From Gibbula magus (Eukaryota > Mollusca > Gastropoda > Trochida > Trochidae): a stretch of 64,000 bases of DNA. Both the position numbers and the translations under genes were made by a program. Shown one piece after another: positions 4,901 to 46,913 of the stretch. The stretch covers positions 54,750,959 through 54,814,958 of the forward strand of contig OW388302.1 of assembly GCA_936450465.1 (NCBI GenBank). The letters run 5' to 3'. Numbering within the stretch: the first letter of the stretch is position 1; the number at the start of each line of letters is the position of its first letter. The notes beneath the pieces were generated by a model. That model ran no database searches, had not been told where the DNA came from, and saw only the letters and a program-made list of their open reading frames with translations.

Positions 4901-5399
4901 CTAAGATGTCCGTTTGTTCAAATGATTTAAATCTTTTGGGCGAAATATTTTGAATTGGATTGACTAGAGTGGCAGATTTGTGTTTGCGAATCTTCAAAAC
5001 ATGTTATGATCATGTTTTCAGATAATTTAAAGTAAACAATGGATTGCTAATTGTCATTGCAAGCAGATTGATTGCTTTGAGAGGGGATTACTTTTTCTTT
5101 CAAATTTTTAAAATATAGATTGAAATTTTTAGCCAAAATGACTAAAGCATGCATAATGGATTTTGATGCAATTTGCAAAATTGAAATTATTTTTGATAAC
5201 CCTAATATCTCAATTTCAGTTCTCATTCCGATTGATTTAACAGATTTCTTCAGTACAGCTGTTTTTGAATACTGCAAAGTTGAACATTTTTTGTTTCCAG
5301 GTTACCTTTGTGGTCATTTTGTTACAAATGTGCAGAGAGGATGATACCTAAAAACAAATTGGGATATCGCATATTAAATTTGAACACTGTCATTTTCAG

Positions 5400-5453
5400 G
5401 GATTTGAAAATGGTTTGTTAAAAGTAATGGGAAAACCTGGGAAAAATAACTGC
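5400..5453 (+). CDS. RBPMS/cpo/mec-8: Alternative exon A of RRM1 (GFENG version)
   Basis: The acceptor is cattttcag and the donor is gtaagta. The exon is 54 nt, phase 0 at both ends, encoding GFENGLLKVMGKPGKNNC. It aligns without gaps to exon B 411 nt downstream (10 of 18 residues identical: G, E, LLKV, K, G, K, N), and the two occupy the same place in RRM1: strand beta2 and the beta2-beta3 loop just before RNP1. The identical length, phase and position are the signature of exon duplication and mutually exclusive use. Including both would keep the frame, so exclusivity, if real, must come from splicing control and not from frame loss. The canonical family residues (GYEG, TNKNG) are replaced here, so this is the derived version. 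No transcript evidence is available to me. Confidence 0.82.
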
Positions 5454-8400
5454 GTAAGTACAAAGTCAACAGGCACAACTTTCACAGGCATTAATTCATG
5501 CGATCCGTCACAAACAGGATCACCGTGCGATCACTGCGCGATCACCTTGCAACAAGGGAGACTACCCTGAACAATCACTCTGACACAATCGCTTGGACAC
5601 TCCACACCACAAAAATTACTCATAGAAAATGTTATTGACTTTTAGACTTTTACTGAAACTAGCGTTTCAGGTCAAGGGTCAAAATTAGTTTAGTTTGATC
5701 TAGACAAGGGGTCACATTGCATCACCACAAGCATGTAGCTGCCTAATTTTTATTGCATATGACACAACTAAAAATCACCTGACATGCTCAAAAAGCCGTA
5801 ACACAGTCAGACGTCATAGACGGACTAGGTTCTGAGCATCACTTGCACTATTTTGTATTTTCAGGGATATGAAGGTTCACTACTCAAGGTCACCAACAAA
5901 AATGGCAAAAACACATCAGTAAGTATTCACTGTCACAGTTGTCTCCCTTTCATTTCTGGCCAATTTCAAATTTCATCCTTCATGTGATGGCCATTTCATA
6001 AATTGTCAGACTTTAGCAGCTATTTTGGAATTTCTAACTTTAGTTAGCAGCCATTTATTCAGAAACTGTCTAATAATGTCAGAAGGTATCTTTTTCATAA
6101 AAATTAAGATTTGTGAGGGAGCCAGCTGTTGAAAAAGACTCTTCTCAAAGTATACATGATATTGTAAGCTCTGGAAAATGTGACTTAAAATATTTTTATT
6201 TGACTTTAGCTCTAAACATTCCCACATTGCTGCATTCTGTGGTGTGGTAACAGATGTTTTTGTATCAAATTTTAAAACAAATATTTTGGTGAAGACAACA
6301 AAATAATTTATGTTTAGAAACTTTACAATTTCTTCAGAGCTTATAATTGCAATTGAATTGTGCATGGTGTTGGGTATGGCATGTCACTGCAGGGAATGCT
6401 CAAAGCATGGAAACTTGTTTTCAATTTTCAGAATTTAACAAAATTTCCATCTTTCAGGTCTTATTAGTTTTCATGTTTCAAACTTTTTGAATTCTCCAGA
6501 CAAATGCCAGTTTTTAAATGTCAGTGCCATTATATTTGTGTCAAATGGTGTTAAAATTATTTGGCATAACATATTGTTGTTGTGAAACATGTTTGTAGTT
6601 GTTTTCTTATTGTTTCTGTTGATAAATGTTTGTAAATGGTTCAAACATGAATCTCTCTTGATGTACACTTTAAACTCTATTAAATTATATAAAAGAGTAA
6701 ATGGTTAATTAAACAAACACATCATAATTCAACAAACTATGCTATCACAATTTCATGTTGAGTTTTGTGTTGTTCTGGTGATTATCTACCTTCCCTCGGC
6801 AAGGCATAACTTGAACCACTCTCCATCACTGGCTTATGTAAGCCTTGTCACATTTATTAAATGTCTCTGTGCTAGTGAATCAGAGTCCATCATGCAGTGC
6901 TCCGATATGTTAGCACAGGAAAGTTATGGAAATGCTGCAAGTTTGAATTAGCCGGCGATGGAGACTGGCGTGAGTTATTCCTTGAAGAGAGAAGTTGGCG
7001 ATTACCTAATTAAAACTTCTTGAATGTTCTGTACAGCTTGGTGGTGTTTAGTCTTTGTTTTGTTTATGTTGCTTTTTGTGCGTAATCCGCTGCTAAAAAT
7101 GTTGAAATATCGTGTGACTTCTGTGATATGTATATTTGTCATTTTAAATTTCTCTCTGCTTGTTGCTTTTTTCTTAGTTTGATAGTTATGTCATCAATCT
7201 GTTTTTCTTATAATACTTCAATTTTAGCTTATCATTATTATGTTTTTGTGTTTGTTTTGTAGTGAAGATACAGTTATGCAAATAAGAAGTACTCCCTCTT
7301 ACAAGAAAGTTTTGTGTATCGAGAATTCTCTAGTGTGTTTCTAGAAAGAAACCACTGACTACCCAAAACATTTACCAGTGTACATCTGTAACTTTCTTGA
7401 TACTTTCTTTATTTGTCAACTGTATATAATATTCCAGTGTTATTTGGAGAAAAATAATGTGAATTTCTAAGTTTAAATTCTGTTGTTTCCAGCCGGTCGG
7501 ATTTGTCACGTTTATTTCCCGTGTAGCAGCTGAATCGGCAAAACAGGATCTTCAGGTAATAATGAAAATGATAATAATTGCAATAATAAATTCCACTTGC
7601 TGTGTGGGCTGTGCGGGGAGTACCTGACTTGTGTTGTCTTTCTAGTAAAGTCTTATGATCAAATTATTTCCAGCTCACATCGTGAAAATTTATCTAACAA
7701 TGTATAGCACACATCAGAAGGAGATTATTTGAGATTGGTAACAGTTATCAACTACATCCTTTTTCACTATGCCTACAGCCAAATGAATAAAACATTTGAA
7801 ATCAATCAATCAATTGTTTATATATATCTCACTGAAGTATACCAAGTCTATTTGTTATGCCCTATTATTAAACCTTGCATGACTTGTACTTGCAGGGTGT
7901 CCGATTTGACCCTGACCTTCCACAGACACTGAGGTTAGAGTTTGCAAAGAGCAACACGAAGGTGACGAAACCCAAGCAGCAATCACCTCAACCTGCTGCT
8001 ACCCATCCCACCATCATACACCCGCTCACAGGGCGTAAGTATGCATGTCCTCACTCCACCCACACTGACACACCCTGGTCCATACTGTGGGTCAAAGCTC
8101 TATAGAAATCTATAATATATATATCAACATTCTGGCCTGTATGAAACGTCTTGCTCAAGGACAGTAATTATAAGCAAGTGCGAGTTTACCGTAAACAGGT
8201 CACATTCATATCAATTATCCAAAAATGGGATGAAATAATTAAAAAATGATTAAACATGATTAATATTTAGAATATATGAATTATCATGCATGTTTTGTGA
8301 CATATTGAAAATATGTCCAGTCAGATGTTGTTTACCCTGACCAGATGTATCTGGAAACCCGGCTATCCTCACAGTAGTATTACAAAACTTCTCAATGCAT

Positions 8401-11400: not shown

Positions 11401-14400
11401 CAATTCCATAGCTAGAACTATAATCCAAAATCCTTGAACCCAAAACCAAACTAAAGGTGAAGCAAAAAACACAATATATACCCGTAACAGAATTCCTAAT
11501 CTCCAAAACCTAAACCTAAGTTTTAACCAGAATTACCGAAGTGAAGCATAACCAGACGCTAAAGCATACATGCAGCAGCAGATCTCACCTTGGAGTGTGT
11601 GTCTTTTTTCCCTTCACTTACAGAAGAGCTAAGTCTAACCCTTAGACTCTGAAAAAAATAATGTTTATATCTGAAAACAAATATTGAAAAAAATATTGAA
11701 AAGGAGCCTTTTTACTGAAAATTCCATTTCCTACAGTCTCCTTTTTAATATTTAATAAAATGGTGATATTTTCAGAATAAATACTTTTGTCAGAGTCCTG
11801 AGTGTAAGACTAAGAAGAGCTAGGTGCTGCCTTTATCCCTGGTGGCCTAGCTCTACTGTGTGTGATGGTAAAATCCTGGAAACCAAGGTGAAGCAAAATC
11901 AAAATCTATACTCGTAACAGAATTCCTAATCTCCAAAACCTAAGTTTTAACCAGAACTACCAAAGAGAAACATAATCGGACGATGACGCTAAAGCATACA
12001 TACATACATACATACATACATACATGCAGCAGCAGCAGCAGCAAATCTCACGTGTGAGTCAGTGTGTCTTTTTTCCCTTCACTTACAGAAGAGCTAGGCG
12101 CGGCCTTTATCCCCACCGCGGGCCCCGAAGGCTGGGCCCCTCACCCCCTCGCTCCATACCCCGATCTGGCACCAACCGCAGCAGCGACTCTCCACCATCA
12201 CACTGCACTAATTCAACACCCAGCCTTGGCACAGGTACCGGTCCGGGTCAGTCTTTCTTACTTAGATCCTTCTCCTTATTGCACAGTGCAACATTGTAAT
12301 CATGCCTTTCTTTCTTTGTTGAATACACACAATTATATACAGGATGTGTGGCAGCCAACATGACTGACGTTTGCTCTACTGTTGACCGACAGAGTTTGTG
12401 TTCTTGCATGGTGCAACGTTGTAATCATGTCTTTGTTTTACAGAGTTACAGGATGAAAACTGTCATTTAGATGGTTGACGGACAATAAGGGCGGACGTAG
12501 GCTCTATTGTTGACAGACAGAATTTCAATGGGTTAATGCTCAAAATGTATGCAGGATTTGCATTTGTAACACAGTATTACAGGAAGAAAACTCATCATTG
12601 ACAAGACTATTTTCTGGTGCATGGTTTGATATTCGACAGTTGAACATTGTGTTACAGTTACTGCAGGGTGAAACATGTTTATCATGTTGACCAGATTTCT
12701 CAATTGTTGTGACAGACTGCATGACAAACGTACATGCCTTAATTGGTATAGGTGCTGGCTCAGTTCAACTTAGTGTTGTTGTGCTGTACAGCTTGTATAA
12801 ACCTTGTCACATGTGTAGAGGTTTTCAGATTTCTCTTTCCTTCACAAGAATAAGAAGTTTATATCCCATCGACTGTGGATGGACAGATTTATATAATGGA
12901 CACAGATTGATGATGCTGCATTTCTGAATGCACAATGCATGGCGAGCTGTTGGCAATTAGCTTTTAATACTGACAATTGGTAACATAAGTTATGTACGGC
13001 CAAAAGCTCTGATGTGCTAATGACTATACGATCAGAATTATTGGAGACTGTATGACTGAAAGTATCATCCACCGTTCCATTACTGCTGAAATATGGAAAT
13101 AATTTGATTGACTGCAGCAAAATACACCCCTCATTTTATGTGACGGAACCTGTCATCACCCGTTTTGTGTGACTGAACCTTGTCATCACCCGTTTTGTGT
13201 GACTCAATGTCACCAACATTTCAAATGACTGAAACAAACTTTGTTTTGTGTGACTGAATAAATCACCTGCATTTTGAGTGACGGAAACTATCACCCAAGT
13301 TTTGTGTGACTGAAAATCTCACCAGTATTTTAAATATCTGAAATTATCACAACATTTTTTGTGACAGAAAACATCACAAAACTTTTATGTGACTGAAATA
13401 ATCACCAGTGTTTTGTGTGACTGCTGAATATATCACCAGTGTGTTTGCCTACACATTACACATAACATGAGTACACAATGAATGAATTTATATGCACAAT
13501 AGAAATGATTTATTCAAAACAGTGTTTCACTTTTGTTATAATATGCTTTTTATAATTTGTTTTGCATTTTAAAGATTATTAATTCCCCCCCCCCTCTTTT
13601 TCGTCCTTTTGCTGTGTTAATATTTTCAATTTTGACTGATTGATTTTATTGATATATTTTCATTACGAAATGCCAAGTTGCTAAGTTGTTTTAAAATGAG
13701 CTGATTATTGTAGCAAGCGTGGAGATTCAGTTTAATTGATTGAAAAGCTGTGCTTTTCTTACAATTCACTTATTAGATAATTAGACATGATATACCAGGG
13801 AAAATACCATGTCTTGAAATACATGTTTCAGGGCCAATTTCTACAACTACCTGAAAGGTATACTTTAGCACCACTCAAATCAAGAAACTTAGCTTAAGTT
13901 CAACTTAAGTTCACCTTTTCTTGAAGTCCTAATTCTGATTTATGCTTAGGCTACACCTCCAAGCATGGCCAAAGTTCCACTTTGAGTCCACTTAAACTAA
14001 GTACACTCTGAATGTCCTCCGCAATCTAAGAACACGTTGAGTTTTCACTTACTAAAGTACACTTAGACCCTTCTTCCATTAAACACTTAGAGATTCTAAC
14101 TGAACACATTTTGCTAGCATGAGTCAAACTTTTTTACACAAAAACTGCAAAACATGTACACTGGCCTGATTAATAATTCTTGTAGAGAATGAAAACAATC
14201 TAAACAAACCCACAGTTTCTAGCAGACCACTGTTTGAACACTTAATTTCTAACTGATTAGGACCTCGCTGTCTCTCAAAGAATGGATACAATGTTTATGA
14301 TGAAAGAATTACATTCAAAGTATTGTAAGAACAATTAACTTATTTAACTTATTTGAAAATTAAATATGAATTGGTACCAGTTTAATTTTTAAATAATCAT

Positions 14401-17400
14401 TGTTATGAAACTAAATTCTGTAAAATTATAAAAGTCTATATATAAATTCAATATAATTTGACATGTAGTTCAAACTTCTTTAAATTCTATTTGTCTATTA
14501 GTTTATATGTGTATTATAAGATGTATATTTATGTATTAGGACCCTTATGGTGTGACTGTGTATATAATATCAACATGTGTCTACAATGGAATAATGTGAA
14601 TAGAAAATAATGTGTGTTCAGTATGGTAATATGATCACAAAATTAATGTGTGCATGTGATAATGCGTACACAATATAATGTTTGTACAACAGGATAATGC
14701 TCATGTACATATGAGATATAAATGTCTTCACGATTGGAAAATGTGATGGAATACTGAGTTTATGATTTATACACAATATACAGAATGTTGTTTTGATGAG
14801 ATAATATCTATACAGTCAATGGGTTAATAACTTTGTGATATATTAATGTTAGCGTAAATGTGTATTTATTTGGAAATTTAAAAATATTTTCTCTAGCAAA
14901 AAGTCAAAAACAATTGTCACATCAAAATGAAGTGCTAAAGGCCATATTTCTTGTAAAAATAGATGTTACTGTATGGTGAGAATAAAGTAATGATCTCTTA
15001 AGTTTGCAATGGAACTATAACATGTATTCCTGGACCCATATTTTTGAAGCTCTCTTAACGCTAAGATAGTCGTAATTGCCATACATTAACACTGACTTAC
15101 GACTATCTTAGCACTAAGACAGCTTCGAAAATCTAGGCCCTGATATCTAAGAATCTTTCTTCGTTTCGTTTCTTTCGTTTCTTTCCATTTTGTTTCAGCC
15201 TGCTTTCTTTTAATGAAATTAAATTTCCATTTGTTTTAATTTTCATTTGTGTTTTATTAATAAAAAGTTAAAGTTGTATTCCATTTTGAGGTTGCTCGTT
15301 TCTGTTGCTTTTGTTTATTTTGTTGTTGTTAGCAATTTCCTGCCTTCTGTATATTCACGTTACTAAGGGCACCAAGTGGTACACTGACACTGTTGCAGTC
15401 ACAAGTCAGCTAGATACCTTGTACTGAACTGCTCACACAGGTTCTAACATCATGTTTCGCACTGTGCAATAAAGAAGGAATATCGCAGCCCTGATAAAGA
15501 TAACATTTTAAAAATTTCACTTTTCACTCAAAGTTCAAAATTGAGTCAATTGTTTTTTTTCGATTTCTTTTTTTATAACAAAACAATGAACAAAAATGAC
15601 ATTTGTTTAAAACTTCAAATGAAATATGAAACTAAAAAAAATCTATCCAAAATAGATAATTGACGGTTCTTATCAGGGTCTGCAAGAAATGTTTGTATGC
15701 ATAACTAATTGTTTTTCTTCAAATGTTTTTATCATCATGACGCACTGTTGAAACTTAAGGTTTGTTTGCCCTTTTCAAAGCTGGAGGACTGTCGACAATC
15801 TAGCATGAAGGGCCTGACACTTGTTTCAAGTTGAACAGAGCACAATATTCATTAAAGGTGTAAACACGAAATTTGCCTGAAAATTCATTTTCAAATTGCC
15901 AATAACATATTTTGTTTGCTTTTAAAATAAATGTTAAGCTGACAAAATTAAACTTAGAAAAATAAACAAAAATGAAAAAGAAAAAAAAAATTGGGGGGGG
16001 GGAGAGAGATTTCACACATTTTATTGAAATCTGCAAAAGGTTGTGTGAAAATTGTTATTTTTGACATTTTGAATTTGAATTCTGATTACACCTTTAATGA
16101 GAAAACAGCTTGCACGATTAACTTTAAATTTGACTGCAGCATCAGCCGCAGTAGCAGCAGCCTTGTTACAAGTGAAGAAGTTCAATCACATTTACAATTT
16201 ATCTCAGATACAGAAAGGTCAAGCTCACTACCCTTCAGCCACCTCCCCTGGTTCAGTCTGGCACTACCAGGTGGGTTAATTGATTCACACTCAAATCTAT
16301 CTTCCATCATCCACAACACACACATACACACACACACACACACACACTCACACACATTAAAATCATTATCCAAAACACATCAGCATATGTGGGGAGTTAA
16401 CACTCAAATCTTAATCCAGAATAACAGAATATGTGGGTAAATACTCAAATCTTCAAAAGGACCACAAGAATAGGTAGGTTACGTAACACTCAAATTGACT
16501 TCAAAATCGATCTCAAAGGCATATCTTTTTTGGATGGGGTGGGGTAATAGTTGTGGAGTGGACTAGTATGTAGACCAAGTTGGTTGACAGTAAAATCTTC
16601 AATACAAAAAACAACTCAAAGACAATCCAACACACTTTTTGTGGGTTGTGTTGACGGTTTGGGTGTGATGGGAAGGATTTTTTTGGTCATTTTCTGCAGA
16701 ACAATTCTTGTAAACAGTTTAGTCTCTTCTGTCTTGAAGAGACATTATATTGTGTTCTTATATTCTTATTGTGTTGACATTAATACTTTGAGGATGGGTA
16801 GGTTTGGTTTGGGTTCTAAATAGTTATCAGCAACTGTTGATTTCAAAGATATCTTAACCTTGAAGTGGCTCGTATGAAGATGGTCAACTGTAATACTTTT
16901 GGGAGCAAGAGGTTTGTTTGGGTTATCATTGATAGTCTTCTTTCATCTGGCACCAGCAGGCAGCTGCAAAGACTTACACAAAGAAGGTGGGTGAAAGTAG
17001 AGGGTGTCAGTTGATTTCAAAGACAATCTTTGAAATCGCAAGATTTTGGTCTGGAAGAAAGGGGTGATTGTATCTGATTTGGACAAGGAATTGATAAGGC
17101 CAAGCCAATTGCACATACAACCTTTAGCCTAAGGTGATATACCAATGTTGGAACAATGGGCCAAGGGTCAAGGGTTTTGTTCAAAAAGACTGAGAAAGAT
17201 AGGATGAGGTCTCTGCAAATCAGAAAGAAGGGTTTTCTTGACTCAAATGCTTTTTGAGGTGGATGCTGATTGGAGGAGAAAACATGTCTGCATTGGAATG
17301 GGTTGGATCTCCTCATGTAACAGGCAAAACCAGCAATACAGGTTCTTGATGAACTTCAAAGTTTCTGAAGTGTTGTAAATTATAATAATCAATTATACAT

Positions 17401-20400: not shown

Positions 20401-23400
20401 TCTGGCATCCATTTCTACATTCATATACACATCTTCAATGTCCACATTTGCATCCAAAATCACATCCACATCCACTTCAACTATCATATCCTCTTCCAAA
20501 TCCAAATCAATATTCACATCCACATCCTCTCCCACATTTCATGTCCTTCATATCTACATCCAGCTCACTTCAACCAAGGACCTTATTTTCTCCTCCACTT
20601 TCACCCTCTTTGAATCTCTTACCCACCATAACTCAATCGAATTTCCAACAACATGCTGTAGTGCTCTTTCTCATGGCCCTTCTTCTGACTATCTACACTG
20701 TCATTCTTTCATTGGTCTTTGGTTAATTACAGTTATGGATCATTGTCTCTCATGTTCTCCCCATCCTAAGAGACTTCTTCTTTTGCAGGCCATCATCATA
20801 TTCCATTTCAGCAAAACTTCAGTTTCTCTTCCTTCACAAACCTCCCTCTTTCATCCCCGCTCTAACCCGGTTTATCTCTTGCAGGCGGGTATGCTTACAG
20901 ACCAGCTGAACTCAGTGTTCCCCCAGATGCAACCAGCCACCCTCATCGCACCGCCAGCCACGGTCACCATGCCCCACCCTTCAATGGCGGCTACCCCTAT
21001 ACTAGCTAGTCCCGTGTCGCAGGTGAATACAACGTCCACCTCTACACACCAGAATGCTCCGTGTTCTACGTTGTTTGTAGCTAATTTGGGACAGTTTAGC
21101 TCTGAACAAGAGCTGAAAGACTTGTTTAACAGGTGAGAGCCCTGAGTGGTAGGCAGCGCGGAAGAACCAGTTAAGTCAGTGGGGGTTTAATTAAGAGTAT
21201 GAGTGAAGTTTTGGTAACCTTTAGTGTGGATAAAGTTGGGTGAGTAAAGTTAAATTAAAGTTCAGTGTAGATATGAGATATGAGTGAGGTTTGGAAGTTA
21301 ACTGAGTAAAGTAACTGTGGATTAAGTACTGGTTAATCCAACTGTGAGTCGAGTCAGTTTAAAAACAAAATAAATGTTAAAACTAAAAATATAGGTTTGA
21401 GTGTAAATTTGTTCAGTTCAGGAGAGATGGGACCCAGAAATTGAATTCACTTACGGTAACATTTTGCGACAACAATGTATAGTTGTAAATAAGTCTCTAA
21501 ATATGTGCATTATGTTTTTAGGAGTATAGGCTTATCAGTAGGCTAACGGAAATCACTTAAATGTACCGTAACGCATTTTTAACGGTCATTTTACAATATG
21601 CCGCATGATGTACCGTCACCTATATTCACGGTTAATATATTACTCTGTGTATCATTCTAATTACATACATATCTCAAGCTAGTGATGAAATTAAATTGCC
21701 CTGTATGATTAACTGATATTTGTTCTTTTGATATGCACTCTTAGACTGATTGTGTAATAAATAACAATTACACGATAGGCCGTCAAAACTACACTTGAAA
21801 TCATCAAAACTGCCATGATGTCAGGTTTTTACGTTTATGTAGGTAATTTAAAAAATGACGTTAAAGTGATGAAAAACATTCGGTGACCCCTTATTATTAT
21901 TTCTGAAAACGATTGTTCAGTTAACTGCGCACATCATATTAAAGTTTTAGCAAAATCTAAAATATGTGTGTTAGTGACAAATCCTGTTGAACATCCGAAA
22001 CACGATGATAAAAATGCCGTTTTTAATTAAAAAGGGGAAAGTTAATGATGCTGGAAAGAGAAATAAAATTAAATTAATGTGATTGAAATGTATCTGAAAG
22101 GATATGGAGATTATTCGCTGAAAGCGAGCACTTAATTTAAATACGCCAAATCAGTAAAAAATGACGTAATTTGCCGACGGGTGTATTATTATTAATGCCA
22201 ATACCGCTTTAAATCGTTCGGTGACCCCCAAATTTTCTTACACTTTTGGATAAAAGACGTAACGAACTTGCTATTTTGAAAAAATAAATGAAATCTAAAA
22301 TATTTGATTTCATTGTCCCATCTCTCCTTAAGTGTAGATGAAGAAAAATGCTATATGAAGAGTAAGTTCAGTATGAAAGAAGTAAAAATGTTTGGACTAG
22401 TAAGTGCATAATTAGTGAATGTCTGGATAAATTGAGTTAAGTATGGGTTAAGGGTTGAATTACAGATTGTTAATTCAGTATGAATGGAGTTAAGTAAGAC
22501 ACAATCAATGCAGTACAAGGCACACCAGATATGATAAATGAGCAAGTAGTATTCAATCTAACCAGTCAAGCTTGTATATCATAAAACATTTCAGACCCGC
22601 CAAAAAAGTAAGCCCAAAGTAGAAATTGACATACCAGGGCTGTCATTTATCCCATATTCTCGTCAAGTGGGTTCCAAATTGGTATGGGTATAAGTTATGT
22701 GCACGAGATAGCTGCAATAAGATTAGCTAGGTAGATGGGTAGGTTTGAGGGAAGCATGATACAGTCCAGTCCATCACTCTCCGCTATGCATCGACACCTT
22801 CTTCTGCTGGGCGTGGTCACTTCAAGTCAACACGTATTACCCCAATGGTTCAAGCAATCTCAAACTAGCTTTTTGATAACAAGAATTTTAAACAATGATT
22901 TTCTAAGCCATTTTTTCAACATCTTTTTATAAGCTGCTCTGAACTAAGACAATGGTTATGGTCAAGCCTTACACTAAAATGATAAACTCATTGTTGATCT
23001 TAGTGCTAAGATATCAAGGAATCTAGATAATACTGTCATTATGACGTCACGTCAATCTGCAGCATGTGATGTTATTACACTAAGCACTAAGTGTAATAAC
23101 ACGATGGATTTATTAAACTGCGATATCTTCAACGAGTGAGTAATAATGAGATGTTTTACACTCTAACCTAACAATATATTTATAAACTTTGATACCGTAA
23201 ATGGAAAATTTGAGAAAACCAAATTTGCAAAAACAACGTATTACAGTGCCGTCAGTGTCGCCTAGTAAATGACGTCATATTTTATGCCATTTTGATTGTT
23301 CAATTGCTAGTATGTTCTACCTCGAGGGACATTAATATTTTCAAAATATAGTTTATACAAATGACATCTCAAAGTTTTTATATATAAAAGGGAGTAATTA

Positions 23401-26400
23401 ATTAAGCCCATCTCATATAAGAAACTTTGAGATATTATGTTATTTTAATAAACTATATTTTGAAAGTAGTTCACATTCAGTAGCAATTGAACATTCAAAG
23501 TTACGTAAAATATGATGTCATTTGCTAAGCGATGCTCTAACTAACGTCCTAAATCACGAGCATGTTTAATAGTCTCATAATGCACGCTGTCGGTCCCATT
23601 GACCGCCTGTATTTTATTGCCGTGGGTATCTTATATTTGTCCATAAACGTATGTTCAAGATTTGGATATTTAAATATAATTGCTATTTGGAGGTTTATAG
23701 GTAACTTATTATGTTCCATCATGTTCCTAATCCATGTAAATCCATGAAAAAAATATGATTGATTGCTTAGTGAGGCTAAACATAATTCACTGTAACTATT
23801 ATTGCAATTTCTGGTAAATATTGTAAGAAGTAATGATTTTAGGTAAATACTTCAAAGGTAGATATCATCCATAATTCAGGTAATATATTATTGCTAATTT
23901 GTGGCAAATAGTTAAAATATTGTGAACATACATTGTTTCGGGAGTATGTATATGCTTACTCCTTCATCAGATCAGAAAATAGTAAACATATACATGTACT
24001 CTGAATTAAGAATTTGTTATCCAGAAAAACTTGCTTTTCTTAGAAGTATCCCGGCCACTTGTACTGGCACTTCTAAGAATTGGTAAAATTTGTGTCAAAA
24101 GGTAGTTTGAGATGTATATATAGTAAGTAAAATGAGGTGCAGCAGCACAGTTGAAGCTTGAAGTCACCACATCTAGCTTGTGAGATTGTTCTAGTGTTGT
24201 CTTCATTGGTGTCTGTGCAGTTATCACACATCATATTCCTCCTCCTCATAAATCTTTTTGTATAAAAACACTTTTATTATTTGAACATGATTTTAAAATC
24301 TACCTTGTGTTTTATCATGAACCATGTGATACCATGTGGCACTCGTCCGATTGTCAATTTGCCACCATACTTTTCATTTATTTACAAAAATCTCTAATTT
24401 CTCTCCCCATTGCTCAAATTTTACACCATTTCTCCATCAAAATTTCAGATTTGTTTTCTTTGTTCTGTGGGATACCTTCCGGTTTAAATTCAAATTGTTT
24501 TTTTTGGTGGTGTAATTTTGAGCATGTATATTTAATGCACATTTATATATATATGGCTGTGGATGTAACCAAATTGCACAACATGACATCTCTCGTTAAA
24601 TGTCTGATTAAATTTTTAAATTTGATTTTCAGACCTTTGAAGTATTGAGTTGTTCTCAAGAGTAATTTTAAATTGATGATATCTGCTAACAATAGTAAAG
24701 TAAGATGACCTATCTATCCATCCATCTATCTATCTGTGCTAGTGCTGGAGTGAAGGAAGGGAGGTAACTCATACATACATTATTTTGCTTTTCTTCTGTT
24801 TCAGTTTTGCAGGATTTAGCCGACTACGTATGCATAATAAGGGCGGATCTCCCGTAGCTTTTGTAGAATATCAGGTGTGTCTTTATTTCACCTCTCACCC
24901 TTGACCCGTGACCCTTGACCTCCCTCCCTAGTCCTCTTTGTTTGACTGATGACCTACCTACCTCAGTGTGCATGATCTGCTGCATGAATGTATGTATGTA
25001 TGTCCACAATGAGCCATCCTTGTGTATTTCCTTGCAAAGCAACTTATTGCTTGGTTGGGATGTAACGAAAGATCTAACTATCGACTATATTTTGATAGTT
25101 GAGTAAATGCAGTTCTTTACTTGAATTTAAAAGTCAAATTCGCACACAAATGCGGCTTTTAGATTTGAAAAATGCTGGACCACTCCGAACAGATCACTGA
25201 GAGCTTGAAACTTGAAACCTAAGTTGTTCTGTCATTGAAAACTAAGCAGTTTGGAAGAAGTCATTTCAAAGTAAAGAGTCTACTAAAGACATTGTTTATT
25301 CTGGAATTGGTTTGATTGTGTCTATACAGATAAATAATCACATTATCTATCACAATAGTAGGTCACAATAGGTTATTGCTATTGCAATAGTTAGTCACAG
25401 ACTATCGCTATCGCAATAGTGCATTGTGGGTCAATAGTCACACCTATTGTTTTGAGATTACAAAATAGCATTTACATTAGCATAGCATGATTCAAATTGA
25501 CCCTGTTCCAAAGAATAAAATCTATAAAATAGTGCATTTACCCGGATACTAACTGGTACTCTAGACTCCTTGCCCCAAGGTCTGATGACTCTCCATATGC
25601 CAGTTCAGTGTAGATAAAACCCAGACTTAGCTGGCCTATCAGATCAAAGTTTCTTAACGATTACCATTTTGAACGCATTTAGAAACATTTGTTAACACGT
25701 TCGTAATTTTACATGATCCTGTAGATGCATTTTGTAAGTTAAAAAGTCTTTGGGCTAGTATTTCAAGAAATGAACTGGTCCGAAATGGCTAGTGCTTAGG
25801 AAAAGTTAAGTTCAAACCCTGCTAACTGTACTTGTGTCATAACAAGCAAGTATATGGACAGTCATCTGACAGTTTGGAGAGAGTTTTGACCCGAGTGATA
25901 AAAGTTTGTATCCCGGTAAATCCATGTATTTGTGACTTTTTCCTCAGAATACAACACAATTAATAATGTTAATAATAAAATCAGAAGAGTCCCCTTCATT
26001 CATTATTATATAAAATATTATTGAATATTTATTACAACATAGGATGGTAGAGTAAAGAATTTGAATTATACACACAAAATTTATCACTTGTCACAAGGAT
26101 GGGCTCGTGGAAATAAATTGTCCTGTACTTGCACTGGGGCACATTCCAGAGTTTTGATTGATCAACTCCATCAAACTTGTTTGCATGATTGCAAACATGA
26201 TTTGATGAAATATTAGTTTGATACTGGGGCCCAAGATTTGTAAAGCTCATCTGTGGTTTGTCAAAAGTACCAGGTATTGATAATCATATTGACTTGTGAC
26301 TGGCTTAGTGCTAAGAGAGCGTTGTTAAATTCAATGAACCTGCAAATTTGTCAAAGAATGTTCCTTTCAGTTGAAAGATTGTCAAAGTGACGTGACCTAG

Positions 26401-27421
26401 AATGGTATTGGCTTTCGACAAACTCTAGTGTTAAGAGAGATTTGATAAACTTGATGAACCTGCAGACTTTGTATGAGGCGTTAAAGAATGTTCCTTTTTG
26501 AGGATAGATTGTCAAAGTGACCTAGATTGATGTTGTTTTTCTACTATCTTAGCGCTAAGAGACCTTTGAAAGTCTATGCCCTGTTGAATATGTACAAACA
26601 ATAGTGTTTTCTGTTCAAAGAGAGGTAACCCTCCAATCAAGGAAAGATAACTCTGATTGTCTTTATAGCAATAACTCCTCTATGAAGGGTGAGCAAGGGG
26701 TGAGGGTTCTATGTGAGGCAACTTTATATGAATAAGGTGCATATTTCATAGGGACAAAAAGTTTATCAAACAAAATGTCATAAGCAAAGGCATTCAGTTA
26801 TTCTATTTCAAATGTAAAAAAGGGAGACAATTCCTGTTAATGTAGATTACTATTCAGAAAAACATAAATCTAATGAAAGTCATGAAACGAAAAGAAAACC
26901 ACATTTTATTCAGAGTGGAGTTTTAAAACAGGGCATTGATTAAAAGGGGAAACAATTTGGTCTGGGATGCATTATTGGAACACTGTATTTCAGTGAGAAG
27001 GGTATGTAAACAAGTGGTGTAAGTACCGAAAAGAAAAGAAAGCTTCTAAACAAGGAGACGATTCTCCTGTAGGGAGATTACCATAGCTCTTAGTAGCAGA
27101 GATAACTGTACACAAGCCAGATAGCTCTTCTGTGGAGAGAAAACACTTTAAAGGGGAAGTAACTGATGCTCAACTTTATTTTGCAGGATGTTGCTCAGGC
27201 CGCAATGGCAATGAATCGCCTCCAAGGTTTTGTTTTGCTCTCTTCGGATCGAGGGGGGCTCCGTATTGAATATGCAAAGAACAAAATGGGTGAAGTGGTG
27301 AGTGGAGTTTAGTCCTTCATCAGACAAGTAAGGAAATTTATGTTATTTTTGCTCAGTCAGGGCCTTCAATGCTTTCATCACCAGCCCTGCACCAGCATGA
27401 TCAAGCTTCAGGTAGACACTG

Positions 27422-30400: not shown

Positions 30401-31880
30401 ATATATTCAAAATTCCTACATGGTGGGGGATATGGCCGACTCTGTCTGCTTGTTTATAATGAATGTGGATTAATGTGTAACCAATTTTTATAATAACTTT
30501 TAAATTTGATGACTGCAATGACTTATTATGTGATGTCTTAATCTTTTCCTTAGAGATAATTAATAACATAATTCCTGATGAGCTTCAGAGCCCATGGCTC
30601 TATTTTTATTCAGACCCTTTTGAAATAAATAGTAAGTAATATAATGAAAAATAAAACTCAGTTATAAAAAATAAATTACCTACAGTTATTGATTGATAAT
30701 GTAGTTACTGTATCAGACTTTAATGTTTGTATTCAATTGTCATACTGGAAAATCGTTGATGTATATTTACTATTTTGTTAAAATTATTTTAAAGGGTTTT
30801 TATGGTTAAACAAGTGTCCTGTTCCCCATGTAGCAGTATGTCTTTGTGAGTTCAGTTAATTCAATTTGATGACGATCTCAAGATAGTTCAAGTGCTGTGT
30901 TATCTCCAATATCTCGACCTTACATCTAGGAAAATAACCTTTGGGGTCCAGTTGGCCTTTGATGAACCTTGATTGGCCAATGAAAATCCTTCCCAAAGAG
31001 CATGCCATGCTTCATTGAGAAGACTGAGATTTTATGGCTGATCAACTCGTTCAACAATGGCCACTTTTTTTATACAGATCATTGTTTCATTGATGGGTTT
31101 CATTCAGACACTATTTTCCCTTGATGTATTGTAGACTCAAAGCAGGGTTAAATTATGTGTGCACAATGTCACGGAGCTCTCTTTGTTAGTCAAGCTAATG
31201 GTTGTAGTCATGTGACTTTTTGGTGACATTTTAGATAAACTTTTATAAGTCAGTGATCTCGAACTTTTTAAACTGTATGTATTAAAGGGGCAGTAGCATG
31301 TTTTTTTCTTTCAACTTTATATTTTCAGATTTCCCATTTATTATTATAGTTTATGTCATTTATATTTACTTTAGAGGGTTAAACATCTTATTACACAAAC
31401 CAATTATCCATATGGTAATAACGGTGTTGCGTATTAAGCCAAAATTGCATGGCAGCCATTTTATTGTGAACACATTTTATTTCGAAAGACAAAAAACTAT
31501 CCCCATGGCTTTACAGAACCATGTACAATCATCTGTAACTTGACTTTCCGAAGAGAGAAAGTTGTTTTACTATTGGTGACATTATTTTCAAATATATTTC
31601 ATCAACTTATGTCAGTGAAAAATCGTGCTACTGCCCCTTTAATAACATTACATGTTTGTATAAATAGTTTTAACTGGACTGGGTATAAGAATGTTCAAGG
31701 CTTCATAGGTAATCTGGATAATGAAAGTGAAGCTATGCTTGCGGAAAGTTAGTGTGTTCAGAGAGAAAAAATCATTTTTGAGATCTCAGCACATTATTTC
31801 AAATTCTGCTTTTCTGTCTTTTTCAGGGCAAAAAGGATGACATCCTGCAGTCCCCAGTTTCCATGGCAACTGCGTTTTGA
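5400..31880 (+). CDS. RBPMS/cpo/mec-8: Couch potato / MEC-8 / RBPMS family RNA-binding protein (spliced, 5' end outside window)
   Basis: The spliced product (about 315 residues in this window) has the second half of RRM1, a Pro/Ala-rich linker, a full RRM2 and a 17-residue tail. Proteins of this family are RRM-type regulators of splicing and mRNA fate that recognise CAC or GCAC motifs. RRM1 is recognised by GYEGSLLKV, the RNP1-containing PVGFVTF, and FDPDLPQTLRLEFAKSNTK, all very close to couch potato. RRM2 is shown by TLFVANL (RNP2), SPVAFVEYQ (RNP1) and RLQGF...GLRIEYAKNKM. Vertebrate RBPMS has one RRM, whereas MEC-8 has two, so the architecture is MEC-8-like. Junction phases are 0,0,1,0,0,2,0,0 and every intron is GT-AG. 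The exon with the start codon and RNP2 of RRM1 is missing from the window. Individual exons are listed below. Confidence 0.92.
5454..5864 (+). promoter_or_regulatory. CAC-rich intron between alternative exons (candidate splicing control)
   Basis: By hand count this 411-nt intron has about 20 CAC trinucleotides, including a run of three GATCAC blocks at about 5518-5546, CACACCAC near 5604, CACCAC near 5722, and GCAC at 5473 and 5846, the last just upstream of exon B's acceptor. RBPMS, Couch potato and MEC-8 bind paired CAC/GCAC motifs (established for the family). I infer possible autoregulation of the exon choice. Enrichment has not been tested statistically. Confidence 0.4.
5865..5918 (+). 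CDS. RBPMS/cpo/mec-8: Alternative exon B of RRM1 (canonical GYEG version)
   Basis: The acceptor is ttgtattttcag and the donor is gtaagtatt. The exon is 54 nt, phase 0 to 0, encoding GYEGSLLKVTNKNGKNTS. It matches the family consensus closely (vertebrate RBPMS GYEGSLIKLTSK at the same exon position), so it is the ancestral form. It supplies RRM1 strand beta2 and the loop leading into RNP1 (VGFVTF) in the next exon. The partner alternative is exon A at 5400-5453. Confidence 0.92.
5919..7492. other. Intron
   Basis: AT-rich intron between exon B and the RNP1 exon. No third copy of the alternative exon was found here, and no recognisable repeat. Confidence 0.6.
7493..7555 (+). CDS. RBPMS/cpo/mec-8: RRM1 RNP1 exon
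   Basis: The acceptor is gttgtttccag and the donor is gtaata. It is 63 nt, phase 0 to 0, encoding 21 residues: PVGFVTFISRVAAESAKQDLQ. VGFVTF is the RNP1 strand (beta3) with its RNA-stacking aromatics, and RVAAESAKQDLQ is helix alpha2. Exon boundaries match the RBPMS exon that starts with PVGFVSF, supporting orthology. The donor lacks the usual G at +5 (gtaata), so it is moderately weak. Confidence 0.93.
7896..8034 (+). CDS. RBPMS/cpo/mec-8: RRM1 beta4 and start of linker
   Basis: The acceptor is gtacttgcag and the donor is gtaagt. It is 139 nt, phase 0 in and phase 1 out. It begins GVRFDPDLPQTLRLEFAKSN, which closes RRM1 (beta4 is TLRLEFAK), then a Lys-rich TKVTKPKQQSPQP stretch and HPTIIHPLTG. 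The family's conserved FDP..PQT.RLEFAKSNTK block is intact. The single carried base C joins AA of the 12089 exon to form Gln; the same join is possible to the decoy acceptor at 11623. Confidence 0.94.
8035..10496. other. Intron, first part
   Basis: AT-rich intron. The only repeat I can bound is the small inverted-repeat element near 9137-9220. The rest, including 9280-10496, holds no supported gene. Confidence 0.5.
9137..9220. mobile_element. Small inverted-repeat MITE
   Basis: GCCATTGCACAAAACAAC on the left is matched, inverted, by the segment around TTTTGTGTAATGGC on the right. The interior includes AACGCTAAGGTTAA. Boundaries are approximate. Confidence 0.5.
10497..10631 (+). mobile_element. 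Internally deleted SINE copy
   Basis: This is the same family and orientation as the element at 2577-2892. The head matches GGATAGTGCAGTGGTTAGCG and TCGGATCAAGAGGTCC, then jumps directly to AATACTAGCAGC near the 3' end and finishes in CTCACCTCACCTCA. About 170 bases, including box B, are missing, so it cannot drive its own transcription. Confidence 0.85.
10929..11018. repeat. 90-nt imperfect hairpin
   Basis: CGAATTATCTGTCC at the left pairs with GGACAAATAATTCG at the right. The centre is AACTCCTCGCTAAAGCTCGG AGTT, a GC-rich apical hairpin. It lies inside the foldback family that continues to 11360. Confidence 0.6.
11128..11360 (+). repeat. CCAATCAG foldback repeat, copy 2
   Basis: It aligns along its length with 58098-58410: AACACAGGTATTGA, ACCAGTC, TTATGTAT, TCATGCAACAAT, TCACTCAAGTCAATA, TTTTGGTC, then TCTCGACCAATCAGAT and CTGGAAA. 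In this copy the CRE-like TGACGTCA positions have mutated to TGACATCA or TGATGTCA. Confidence 0.7.
11443..11841 (+). pseudogene. Decayed tandem duplicate of intron end and exon start (decoy exon)
   Basis: This unit duplicates 11879-12116: the same GGTGAAGCAAAA, CGTAACAGAATTCCTAATC, TTTTAACCAGAA, CATGCAGCAGCAG and polypyrimidine tract. The last 30-odd bases, tcttttttcccttcacttacag and then AAGAGCTA, are identical to the genuine 3' splice site 465 bp downstream. In the phase carried from the 8034 donor it would read QELSLTLRL and stop at 11650-11652. An inverted-repeat element at 11633-11810 splits the copied exon, which resumes as AAGAGCTAGGTGCTGCC. It could be an inert relic, a decoy acceptor or a poison exon that truncates the protein after RRM1. 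Confidence 0.75.
11633..11810. mobile_element. 178-bp foldback MITE inside the duplicated exon
   Basis: The left end GTCTAACCCTTAGACTCTGA matches the inverted right end GTCTTACACTCAGGACTCTGA with one gap. Internal arms around AAAAGGAGCC and CTCCTTTTTAATATT also pair. The flanks are TAA on both sides (11630-11632, 11811-11813), which suits a PIF/Harbinger-type target site. A longer AAGAGCTA repeat also flanks it, so the exact duplication is ambiguous. Confidence 0.75.
12001..12047 (+). repeat. (CATA)n then (CAG)n microsatellites
   Basis: Tandem CATA (about seven units) is followed by five CAG units, 40-85 bases upstream of the 12089 exon. In the duplicated unit at 11560-11580 both tracts are short, so the expansion happened after duplication. 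Confidence 0.9.
12089..12234 (+). CDS. RBPMS/cpo/mec-8: Linker exon (Pro/Ala-rich)
   Basis: The acceptor is cttcacttacag. The phase-1 join makes Gln, then 48 codons starting ELGAAFIPTAGPEGWAPHPL and ending HTALIQHPALAQ. The GPE.W..HPLA pattern corresponds to the post-RRM segment of couch potato. The exon is markedly GC-rich against an AT-rich background. The donor CAG|gtaccg lacks the consensus at +4 to +6, and the frame stays open through VPVRVSLSYL to a TGA at 12361-12363, so a retained-intron isoform ending in about 42 extra residues is possible. Confidence 0.88.
12235..13120. other. Intron
   Basis: The first 129 bases are an open continuation of the exon frame (see the finding). The remainder has no supported feature. 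Confidence 0.5.
13130..13440 (+). repeat. Degenerate minisatellite, TTTTGTGTGACTGAA units
   Basis: About nine diverged units of roughly 33-36 bases each carry TTTTGTGTGACTGAA followed by ATCACC. Clear examples are at 13163, 13191, 13246 and 13300. CAC occurs in most units, so it is another CAC-rich stretch inside an intron of a CAC-binding protein's gene. Confidence 0.75.
13441..15030. other. Intron, nothing recognised
   Basis: AT-rich. The 13850-14110 stretch is rich in TTAAG/CTTAAG words but I could not bound a repeat. Confidence 0.45.
15031..15143. mobile_element. Foldback MITE, CGCTAAGATAGTCGTAA family
   Basis: The left arm (about 44 bases) ends in CGCTAAGATAGTCGTAA. The right arm begins TTACGACTATCTTAGCACT and ends in AAAATCTAGGCCC, so nearly the whole element is a hairpin. 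Related ends occur near 26553, 33663-34129 and, degraded, near 459. Confidence 0.8.
16208..16270 (+). CDS. RBPMS/cpo/mec-8: Probable linker exon
   Basis: Read in phase 0, the exon encodes IQKGQAHYPSATSPGSVWHY followed by Q. It runs from acceptor catttacaatttatctcag to donor gtgggt (63 nt, phase 0 to 0), fitting between the 12089 and 20885 exons. The composition (Ser, Pro, aromatic) suits the family's linker or tail. Several AGs lie upstream (16136 to 16207) but those in usable phase with a pyrimidine tract are few; an in-frame extension upstream (ASAAVAAALLQVKKFNHIYN) is also open. It could be a cassette exon. I have not confirmed conservation. Confidence 0.6.
16318..16353 (+). repeat. (CA)n microsatellite
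   Basis: A CACACA tract lies 48 bases after the donor of the 16208 exon. CA repeats are dense CAC sites. Confidence 0.95.
16960..16986 (+). CDS. Possible 27-nt microexon
   Basis: It is bounded by ctggcaccagcag and gtgggtgaaag, phase 0 to 0, encoding AAAKTYTKK. It would fit in frame between the 16208 and 20885 exons. The pyrimidine tract is modest and the call rests only on splice-site and phase fit, so treat it as a hypothesis. Confidence 0.22.
17000..18950. other. Intron, nothing recognised
   Basis: AT-rich with a (TC)n tract near 17798-17816. Short ORFs on both strands show no domain. Confidence 0.5.
18955..19475 (+). repeat. Tandem repeat of about 100 bp, five units
   Basis: Units begin GAGAAATRTG and run through CTACTTGTAGGC and ACAATAAG to TATTTCTCCTATG. 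Units 2 and 3 (19037-19138 and 19139-19238) are nearly identical, unit 4 is shortened and unit 5 carries a nested MITE. A decayed further unit may lie at 19565-19640. Confidence 0.85.
19315..19407. mobile_element. 93-bp TA-flanked MITE nested in the tandem repeat
   Basis: Ends are CAGTAGAACACAGATATA and, inverted, CAGTAGAACACAAATATA (17 of 18). TA lies on both sides (19313-19314, 19408-19409), fitting a Tc1/mariner/pogo-type insertion. Unit 1 of the host tandem repeat (around 18968) preserves the empty site. Confidence 0.85.
19480..20884. other. Intron
   Basis: The region 20360-20880 is open in the exon frame for a long way (TCCACATCC-type degenerate repeats giving Ser/Thr/His-rich translation), but this is pyrimidine-rich intron leading to the acceptor, not coding sequence. 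Confidence 0.55.
20885..21132 (+). CDS. RBPMS/cpo/mec-8: Linker and RRM2 RNP2 exon
   Basis: The acceptor is ggtttatctcttgcag and the donor is AACAG|gtgaga. It is 248 nt, phase 0 in and phase 2 out (82 codons plus AG). It starts AGMLTDQLNSVFPQMQP, continues through a Pro/Thr/Ala/Ser-rich linker, and reaches RRM2 at residue 62: TLFVANL is RNP2 (beta1) and SSEQELKDLFN is helix alpha1. The coding part is GC-richer than both flanks. Single-RRM vertebrate RBPMS lacks this region; two-RRM MEC-8 has it. Confidence 0.94.
21133..23239. other. Intron
   Basis: Short sequences rich in 'gagtaaag...gtgtagat' words follow the donor (21180-21420) and reappear inverted near 22330-22520, suggesting an element about 1.2 kb long whose ends I could not fix (CCCATCTCTCC at 22317 pairs with GGAGAGATGGGA at 21421). 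Confidence 0.4.
23255..23548. mobile_element. Foldback element
   Basis: The left arm, AAATGACGTCATATTTTATG, TTGTTCAATTGCTAG, TTTTCAAAATATAGTTTAT and ATCTCAAAGTTT, returns inverted on the right as AAACTTTGAGAT, ATAAACTATATTTTGAAA, TAGCAATTGAACA and AAAATATGATGTCATTTG. The arms are over 100 bases with a short AT-rich loop. Confidence 0.8.
23560..24804. other. Intron
   Basis: No repeat or exon identified before the acceptor ttcttctgtttcag. Confidence 0.5.
24805..24874 (+). CDS. RBPMS/cpo/mec-8: RRM2 RNP1 exon
   Basis: The acceptor is cttctgtttcag and the donor is gtgtgt. It is 70 nt, phase 2 in and phase 0 out. The junction codon AG|T is Ser, then FAGFSRLRMHNKGGSPVAFV and EYQ. GFSRLRM is beta2 and SPVAFVEY is RNP1 (beta3). 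A second AG 11 nt into the exon (ttttgcag|GA) would create an immediate stop, which fixes the acceptor at 24804. Confidence 0.95.
24875..27186. other. Intron
   Basis: It contains several decayed inverted-repeat ends of the TTAGYGCTAAGAGA family (26300, 26430 and 26555) and a CAATAG-rich stretch (25350-25450). No other exon was seen. Confidence 0.5.
27187..27297 (+). CDS. RBPMS/cpo/mec-8: RRM2 C-terminal exon
   Basis: The acceptor is ttattttgcag and the donor is gtgagt. It is 111 nt, phase 0 to 0, 37 residues: DVAQAAMAMNRLQGFVLLSS is helix alpha2 and the following loop, and GGLRIEYAKNKM is beta4. It closes RRM2 with the same IEYAK signature as RRM1's LEFAK. Exon layout across RRM2 parallels RRM1. 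Confidence 0.95.
27421..27452. repeat. (TA)n microsatellite
   Basis: A TATATA tract lies about 125 bases after the 27297 donor. Confidence 0.9.
27453..28698. other. Intron
   Basis: Nothing recognised. Confidence 0.5.
28699..29060. mobile_element. Hairpin-capped repeat, GCTCATCAGGCC end
   Basis: It opens with a perfect palindrome, AGCTCATCAGGCCTT / AAGGCCTGATGAGCT (28700-28730), then GGCGTCCGTCCGTCC, TTTTTCGACTTCTTCTCC, and two diverged units with CAGACTC and GATTCTAAATT. The same order, reversed, ends the array at 48.43-48.58 kb. Confidence 0.75.
29094..29266. mobile_element. 173-bp pogo/Tigger-like MITE
   Basis: The left end CAGTCAGGCCTCGATAATCC and the inverted right end CAGTCAAGCCGCGATAATCC are 18 of 20 identical. 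TA target duplications lie at 29092-29093 and 29267-29268. The CAGT...CTCGATAATCCG terminus is typical of pogo-group elements. There is no transposase. Confidence 0.85.
29691..30607. mobile_element. Hairpin-capped repeat with tandem core
   Basis: The left end is CCCCCGCCACAACGAAGTTG followed by CCGTCTGTCTG. Two core units (CCGGCCTCAAACTTC to AGATGTGCCTTTT) lie near 29763-29850 and 29937-30020. The right end is CCTGATGAGCTTCAGAGCCC then ATGGCTCTATTTTT, the reverse of the ends at 40.73 and 63.92 kb. Both ends could belong to one element or to two abutting ones. Confidence 0.6.
30608..31281. other. Intron, nothing recognised
   Basis: AT-rich sequence without a supported feature. Confidence 0.5.
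31282..31642 (+). mobile_element. TTAAAGGGGCAGTAGCA element, copy 1 (empty site)
   Basis: Perfect 17-base terminal inverted repeats TTAAAGGGGCAGTAGCA bound 361 bp. It aligns in reverse orientation with 50286-51094. At the position where that copy carries a nested hAT-like MITE, this copy reads straight through TGTAATAAGATGTTT on its reverse strand. TTAA ends could be a TTAA target or part of the terminus. Confidence 0.9.
31827..31880 (+). CDS. RBPMS/cpo/mec-8: Terminal coding exon
   Basis: The acceptor is tttctgtctttttcag. It encodes GKKDDILQSPVSMATAF and then TGA at 31878-31880. Phase 0 from the 27297 exon continues the basic MGEV|GKKDD stretch after RRM2 beta4. A short tail after RRM2 is usual for two-RRM members of this family. 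Confidence 0.88.
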   Translation, partial: GKKDDILQSPVSMATAF

Positions 31881-46600: not shown

Positions 46601-46913
46601 CATTTTTTATACCAGGATGAAGCCAAGTTTCAGAGATGCTAATTACATCGAACTCTTTTAGTTCCGCATAAACTAAGTCTACTTTATCAACTAAACTACA
46701 TACATTAACATGAACAAAGGATATATCACGGTTGTCAGGACCAGGATTGGGATGTACATCGCCACAACATAACATTATTAGAAGAGTTATACGTAGGCCA
46801 GTAATTCCAAGATAATAGAAGGAGATAATTAAAAAGCACGAGTTGATATCTAATTTATGCTTAGGGTTGTTATATCTGATTATACAGAAGGTCCCAATCC
46901 TCTGTCTGTACAT
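43620..46913 (-). CDS. Intact non-LTR retrotransposon ORF: APE endonuclease plus reverse transcriptase
   Basis: 1097 codons with no internal stop, ATG at 46911-46913 and TAG at 43620-43622. Residues about 22-50 are hydrophobic and lead into GDVHPNPGP (51-59), a 2A-like motif. An APE-type endonuclease follows: N70 (HVNVCSL), E95 (SETWL), GDFN at 198-201, and SDH at 261-263. The reverse transcriptase spans about 490-770: NYRPISLTS (556-564), DISKAFD (628-634), GVPQGSVLGPLL (684-695) and FADD (714-717). A C-terminal C-x-C...H...C cluster (1028, 1030, 1039, 1044) is the knuckle common in such elements. There is no RNase H and no separate ORF1. It is a Jockey/CR1/I-type LINE; I cannot fix the clade. 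The complete catalytic set and open frame imply recent insertion. Confidence 0.95.
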   Translation of the reverse strand: MYRQRIGTFCIIRYNNPKHKLDINSCFLIISFYYLGITGLRITLLIMLCCGDVHPNPGPDNRDISFVHVNVCSLVDKVDLVYAELKEFDVISISETWLHPGIKNEDIFIPGFQMPLRRDRPTRGGGVAVYVKENLHVKRRSELELPGLEAVWIDINCRNKNFTIGTFYRANYTVRYWELIDESIALASDSKSALIVLGDFNVNMYNVTDNNITNIERLYGLKQIINEPTRITPTSKTLIDLILISCPNLTSSFGTLANFCSDHCPVFVKLRYKKTPEPSYLRRVYDYNSIDLNGLTREASIFDWNAGLTDDVNESTQNTIDAVIQLTDSFVPNKLVRIRPRDEPWMNGYIRRLLRQRNRVHKKAKKNNSPALWEIFRQKRNFIISEIRKCKKEYNAKLDNSLNSEHGNKTWWKIVKDYLKRSSKSKSFPCLEHEGAIYDDDHAKANILNNYFVNNTKIPNHDESINDNTMNREIIIQQLHVSEKEIEDILKSLDSTKSIGPDKISNRILKILSSYLSKPLCYIFNLSLSQSVFPDIWKIASVIPLHKKESKLLCSNYRPISLTSCLSKVFEKCVHKHVHNYFLSYGIITPLQSGFTPGDSTVYQLTHLYNFIGKALDEGKEIKAVFCDISKAFDRVWHKGVLYKLKKYGIGGKLLKWFESYLSDRNQYTVINGRQSDTKSILAGVPQGSVLGPLLFLVFINDIVDEIKCNIRLFADDTSLYVIIGDPIETSCLINNDLLRISEWADEWKVNFNAEKTESITFSRKRVPTKVPNLDMKGKLINDLSTHKHLGLTFQSNGNWHSHIENIISKVSPMINCLRSYKYRLNRHTLHVLYNSYILPLFDYCDHIFDNCTKYHELLLENLHLDAIRTICGAVRGTSHQKLYKETGFTSLAFRRKCHKLCLFYKMKFQLTPEYLSSLVPQAMSDISNRNTRTSHNLQIPVCYTELYKRSFLPSAIAEWNDLDMYLKNCESYAIFKKNIFKGDCNVHKIFKDYGNRQNQVTLCRLRLGCSDLKGHKFDRFIEDSATCLCNYLYEDVMHYLFVCQNYSDIRSNSYYYVNGFNLKTVLYGNNDLSDEINLKIVDSVCTFIDLSKRFKI
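46737..46763 (-). other. 2A-like motif GDVHPNPGP
   Basis: The invariant NPGP preceded by DV fits the 2A consensus D(V/I)ExNPGP except that E is His. 2A-like sequences are known in APE-type LINEs of echinoderms and molluscs, where they cause ribosome skipping or act with a signal-like leader. The E to H change may weaken or remove skipping. Confidence 0.65.

Follow-up and report, generated by a model that had tools for sequence, protein, structure and literature searches.

The gene and its paired exons

The window analysed here, a 64-kb stretch of the Gibbula magus genome (OW388302.1:54750959-54814958, from a 1.47-Gb assembly), carries, as judged by its sequence, the greater part of a gene on the plus strand that belongs to the MEC-8/couch potato/RBPMS family and has two RNA recognition motifs (RRMs). 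Two adjoining exons of this gene, A and B, encode versions of the same element of RRM1, namely the beta2 strand and the beta2-beta3 loop, and the gene probably yields alternative RRM1 forms through the use of one or the other. Both exons are 54 nt long and of phase 0-0, with a TTTTCAG acceptor and a GTAAGT donor, and since the upstream RRM1 exon ends in phase 0 and common exon C begins in register, either A or B completes RRM1. An earlier note on this DNA had described two adjoining exons of this length and phase with good splice sites, occupying one slot in RRM1 of such a gene, with B as the family consensus; the exon map, the phase as set by both neighbours, the protein matches and the protein comparisons bear this description out.

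Joined with exon A in the slot, ten exons (Table 1) give an open frame of 345 residues up to the stop, which contains two RRMs, as does MEC-8. Residue numbers are those of human RBPMS, counted on its sequence as we take it to read. The CAC contacts Phe27, Leu54, Lys56, Phe65, Glu97, Lys100, Asn102, Thr103 and Lys104 of the RBPMS-RNA crystal (PMC4783296) are matched in the exons, within the stretches TLFV, LLK (alike in A and B), GFVTF and LEFAKSNTKV, and the upstream exon contains the 11-residue RRM1 dimer motif D-x-K-x-R-E-L-Y-L-L-F as defined for the MEC-8/couch potato/RBPMS family in PMC4150794. The gene's first exons, 5' of RRM1, did not turn up in the 80 kb examined. A search of the species' own genome returned no second locus for exons B+C+D at E 0.001; it matched C and D alone at the present locus, because B by itself is too short.

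Linker exon E agrees with Haliotis rufescens at 40 of 46 aligned residues, and its later donor adds VPVR, as in Haliotis isoforms. The cassette exon has a counterpart in one abalone isoform (P0001) that is missing from another (P0018). About 12 kb beyond the terminal exon found, a minus-strand open frame of 1103 residues (43620-46931) with the Pfam domains Exo_endo_phos and RVT_1 resembles a retrotransposon without long terminal repeats (non-LTR). A GGIAQWLARSASDQEVRGSNPARG-like frame at 2559-2750 is of a kind that we take to be typical of translated tRNA-derived short repeats.

Table 1. Features of the Gibbula magus gene, in window positions
Feature	Position	Strand	Description
Upstream RRM1 exon	-608 to -531 (0 = base preceding window; L003:8892-8969)	+	26 residues, end AAG/gtaaaa, phase 0
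Exon A	5400..5453	+	alternative RRM1 beta2 and beta2-beta3 loop, GFENGLLKVMGKPGKNNC
Intron A-B	5454..5864	+	411 nt, 20 CAC, 14 CACN1-12CAC pairs; candidate self-binding region
Exon B acceptor region	5832..5864	+	two CAC (5840, 5846), 17-25 nt 5' of exon
Exon B	5865..5918	+	family-consensus form of the beta2 and loop element, GYEGSLLKVTNKNGKNTS
Common exon C	7493..7555	+	RRM1 beta3 (RNP1) and next helix, PVGFVTFISRVAAESAKQDLQ; starts PVGFVTF
Common exon D	7896..8034	+	RRM1 end with CAC-reading C-terminal loop (EFAKSNTKV)
Linker exon E	12089..12246	+	candidate donors after 12234 and after 12246
Cassette exon	16208..16270	+	63 nt, IQKGQAHYPSATSPGSVWHYQ; CA microsatellite 3' of exon
Exon F	20885..21132	+	linker and RRM2 start
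Exon G	24805..24874	+	RRM2 middle
Exon H	27187..27297	+	RRM2 end
Terminal coding exon	31827..31880	+	GKKDDILQSPVSMATAF and stop

Duplication and conservation of exon A

Homologous, adjoining and equal in length and phase, A and B form a tandem pair; they are identical at 29 of 54 nucleotides and 10 of 18 residues, and six of the ten common residues are encoded by differing codons. When neutral drift was simulated from present-day B with the 25 nucleotide differences observed, 4.4 +/- 1.4 residues were kept (P=0.0004 for at least ten), none of 20,000 runs that started from present-day A kept ten, and a stop codon arose in about 70% of the runs. A scan of open stretches preceded by AG over 17.6 kb around the locus, on both strands, scored 62 for A, 61 for B and 14 for the next best, so that two copies are present and a third was rejected. 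All 18 residues of exon A recur in isoform X4 of H. rufescens, where the identity extends over the following 42 residues, and all 18 of exon B recur in an isoform of Haliotis asinina.

Beyond abalones, the pair was followed through 208 different proteins, drawn from the best 120 of 603 matches plus further searches, each entry being the representative of a 90% identity cluster. A-type segments are marked by Met58-Gly59-Lys60; classification was by residue 58, where no residue other than Met or Thr occurs in the 208 proteins, so that Met58 and Thr58 are definitions of A and B here. On this basis 21 entries are A-only, six contain A and B, and 181 are B-only. A-type segments were found in the annelid Owenia and in at least 18 named mollusc species among gastropods, bivalves and cephalopods, including H. 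rufescens, Babylonia, three Mytilus species, four oysters, Mya, Dreissena, Mercenaria, Ruditapes, Pecten, Argopecten, Potamilus, Octopus and Argonauta. At least six species (Mya arenaria, Saccostrea echinata, S. cucullata, Mytilus edulis, M. galloprovincialis and Owenia) have both A-only and B-only entries. Three A-only proteins (P0016, P0064 and P0121) were read from contigs of 1377-1500 bp, which presumably represent cDNA, as they are too short for introns of the size seen at the locus; these are all of the A-containing entries from transcript-sized contigs (3/3). Against alternative RRM1 forms stands that only B was seen among the entries listed for Biomphalaria, Physella, Patella, Gigantopelta, Mizuhopecten, Solemya and the chiton Liolophura, which is, however, not evidence of loss, because clustering at 90% identity can hide A.

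Between species, 11 chosen A segments share 8-12 of 12 core residues (mean 9.7), as compared to 6-8 for A versus B within one species (six species), the two ranges meeting at 8. This agreement, taken with the common MGK signature, suggests a duplication that predates the mollusc classes. A may have arisen separately in Owenia, whose loop differs; a search with the annelid A-type segment as query matched itself and P0121 alone. P0121 itself (317 residues, 1377-bp contig) has an A-type RRM1 with the loop MGKQVIPHNC, which resembles the exon A loop of Babylonia, and a divergent RRM2. In P0205, P0207 and P0208, likewise from short contigs, GYEG...PVGFVTF...QDLQ is apparently encoded by a single exon after what seems to be a read-through intron, and the B-C intron would thus be missing there.

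The notion that A is a dead or scarcely used duplicate is very hard to reconcile with these data, and we give it next to no weight: the splice sites of A are intact, many silent changes have accumulated as the residues stayed conserved, and A is conserved in several mollusc classes and Owenia. It was rejected on the strength of this conservation and of the neutral simulation. The earlier note had made the state of A in related molluscs part of its own refutation test, and A is kept across mollusc classes there, without stops. Exon A is thus very probably a real and old switch, and its use in Gibbula magus is predicted from the sequence.

Exclusivity of the exons and the predicted change of the RRM1 surface

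That A and B would be mutually exclusive, as the earlier note had claimed, holds insofar as each exon occurs alone in related species, as the counts of A-only and B-only entries given above attest; strict exclusivity is not supported. Both A and B are present in six of the 27 A-containing entries (from Ostrea, Magallana, two Mytilus, Babylonia and Argonauta), every one a gene model from an annotated genome, and RNA structure across the pair (5380-5960) gives a fold z of -0.05, both of which weigh against the proposed either/or use. Enforcement by RNA structure accordingly was without support, one 17-nt pair of 82% complementarity (5554-5570 / 5933-5949) being present. Enforcement by nonsense-mediated decay was ruled out, since inclusion of 54, 108 or 0 nt keeps the frame in each case.

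One could also regard A as an added cassette, whose use beside B would insert a long segment into RRM1 and yield an A+B protein that is perhaps an RRM1-off form. Both exons preserve the frame, and the six A+B entries fit such a view. Structures were predicted for the A and A+B forms, the B form being represented by the solved structures of MEC-8 and RBPMS; the Babylonia A+B model loses beta2, with a predicted local distance difference test (pLDDT) score of 35-49 at residues 71-100 (18-sequence alignment), and Pfam RRM_1 detects one RRM only in three of the six A+B proteins versus two in all seven A-only or B-only proteins tested. From the model and the Pfam results, an A+B protein, if made, would likely be RRM1-impaired. 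However, gene predictors may chain exons that never occur together in one mRNA, and 21 entries, including each of the three with A from contigs of transcript size, are A-only, which makes the added cassette a quite unlikely account of exon A.

The RNA contacts of beta2 in the RBPMS-RNA crystal are Leu54 and Lys56 (PMC4783296), and both are retained in all 27 A segments. What differs between A and B is Thr58 (Met in A), residue 59 (Gly in A) and a loop of variable length, all near the nucleotide 5' of CAC; by strand alternation, residue 58 should lie on the same face as the beta2 contacts. The beta2-beta3 loop of the molluscs is five residues longer than that of human RBPMS, so that the loop contact Gln61 has no safe alignment. 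The earlier note had stated that A keeps the core and changes the RNA-facing positions; the first part stands, and the second is not supported as written because Leu54 and Lys56 are kept throughout, the alteration of residue 58 and of the loop being the part that remains. Both RRM1 forms would still read CAC, and A would alter the grip on the nucleotide 5' of it, or the overall affinity, through Thr58->Met and the changed loop. The dimer surface falls outside the swapped exon (PMC4783296, PMC4150794), and for this reason A chains and B chains should be able to pair.

Such pairing also permits another reading, in which A weakens RNA binding without shifting preference, and A chains damp B chains by dimerising with them. 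In addition to the position of the dimer surface outside the exon (PMC4783296, PMC4150794), it is favoured by the closeness of Thr58->Met and the loop changes to the RNA path, and by the loss of splicing activity in RBPMS mutants defective in RNA binding or dimerisation (PMC6613909). A pure off-switch would, however, have no need of the Leu54 and Lys56 that are kept in 27/27 A segments, and we consider damping somewhat unlikely, less so than the added cassette. Alternative RRM1 forms with retained CAC reading remain the preferred interpretation.

CAC motifs, known systems and significance

How the choice between A and B might be made is a more speculative matter, and the idea of self-regulation set out here was formed after the sequence had been viewed. 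RBPMS represses an exon when CACN1-12CAC pairs lie within it or in the 80 nt that precede it, and activates one when such pairs follow downstream (PMC6613909). Exon A itself contains no CAC; one lies in the 80 nt upstream of it, and the downstream side has four within 80 nt and 12 within 200 nt. Exon B contains three, and a further three occupy the 80 nt before it, two of these close to the exon (Table 1). Under the RBPMS position rule, this placement would predict a net promotion of exon A and blocking of exon B by the protein. Conceivably, the choice may be set by CAC-binding proteins at the A-B intron, which is rich in CAC, the motif typical of the family, possibly including the gene's own product, with a bound protein favouring A and blocking B.

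A density of at least 20 CAC per 411 nt is reached at only two loci in 153.5 kb of the contig, counted on both strands. One is the A-B intron, which contains no CA run longer than 4 nt; the other is a CA microsatellite that follows the gene's own cassette exon at a distance of at most 90 nt (region 16208-16356), with the top CAC density in the window. By CACN1-12CAC pairs, the dense regions are 5441-5911, 7671-8331 (exon D) and 15931-16741. A repeat origin of the A-B intron was rejected, as no other match at E 0.1 was found in about 153 kb; searched against the window alone, the intron gave matches at E 0.074 and 0.90.

Several observations weigh against a regulatory meaning of these motifs: exon B is followed by two CAC within 80 nt as well; the 20 CAC of the intron compare with 16.4 +/- 2.5 in dinucleotide-preserving shuffles (p=0.10); the MEC-8 motif GCAC is not enriched in the intron (two versus 3.1 expected); and counted as CACN1-12CAC pairs per 411 nt, the surroundings of common exon D equal the intron in density. 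We accordingly lean slightly towards plain base composition or drift, without a regulatory role, as the source of the CAC richness, a view to which the shuffles, the GCAC count, the microsatellite nature of the other hotspot and the exon D region all contribute. Against it stand the rarity of such density in 153.5 kb, the absence of longer CA runs from the intron and an enrichment of TCAC there (p=0.004, with five patterns examined). The full self-regulatory proposal, in which the product binds its own A-B CAC cluster, promotes A and blocks B, and thereby shifts the 5'-flank preference of RRM1 with CAC reading kept, in a two-state loop as old as the molluscs or older, we regard as improbable on present evidence.

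As a device, the pair has precedents. In vertebrate U2AF1, the tandem, equal-length duplicate exons Ab and 3 (U2AF35a/b), 67 nt each, swap part of an RRM-type domain in a splicing factor, and their use is partly regulated by its own product (PMC5224494). The gene and phylum are different there, as is the domain part exchanged (RNP2 and a helix of a protein-binding UHM), and inclusion or skipping of both U2AF1 exons leads to stop codons and decay (PMC5224494), whereas the 54 nt of A and B keep the frame. Equal-length alternatives that remodel a protein core are likewise known from coq-2 exons 6a/6e in helminths, annelids and molluscs, where pairs of this type can arise independently, although coq-2 encodes an enzyme and not an RNA-binding protein (PMC7434440). 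MEC-8, couch potato and RBPMS belong to the same family as the Gibbula gene by RRM sequence, dimer motif and CAC contacts (PMC4783296, PMC4150794, PMC6613909). In Tpm1 and Actn1, CAC clusters upstream of a mutually exclusive exon let RBPMS repress it (PMC6613909); these are other genes, as RBPMS targets, whereas the clusters in Gibbula belong to an RBPMS-family gene itself, as candidate sites. A literature search found no description of an exon that swaps beta2 or another part of an RRM in the MEC-8/couch potato/RBPMS family, with subscription papers mostly outside its scope and hence as weak evidence of absence. The type of device is thus already known, and the gene and the swapped element are new as far as could be found.

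Exon A is already contained in public gene models, some of them named 'U1 small nuclear ribonucleoprotein A-like'; several mollusc orthologues bear this label, which is misleading for a gene of the MEC-8/couch potato/RBPMS family. The structural work on the family consulted here (PMC4783296, PMC4150794) handles RRM1 as a single surface with a fixed reading of CAC. The exchange of Thr58 for Met58-Gly59 offers a small set of residues for study in vitro, and the CAC-rich intron a handle on possible self-regulation. The presence of the strand and loop swap in three mollusc classes and an annelid would mean that selection has kept two versions of the RRM1 surface.
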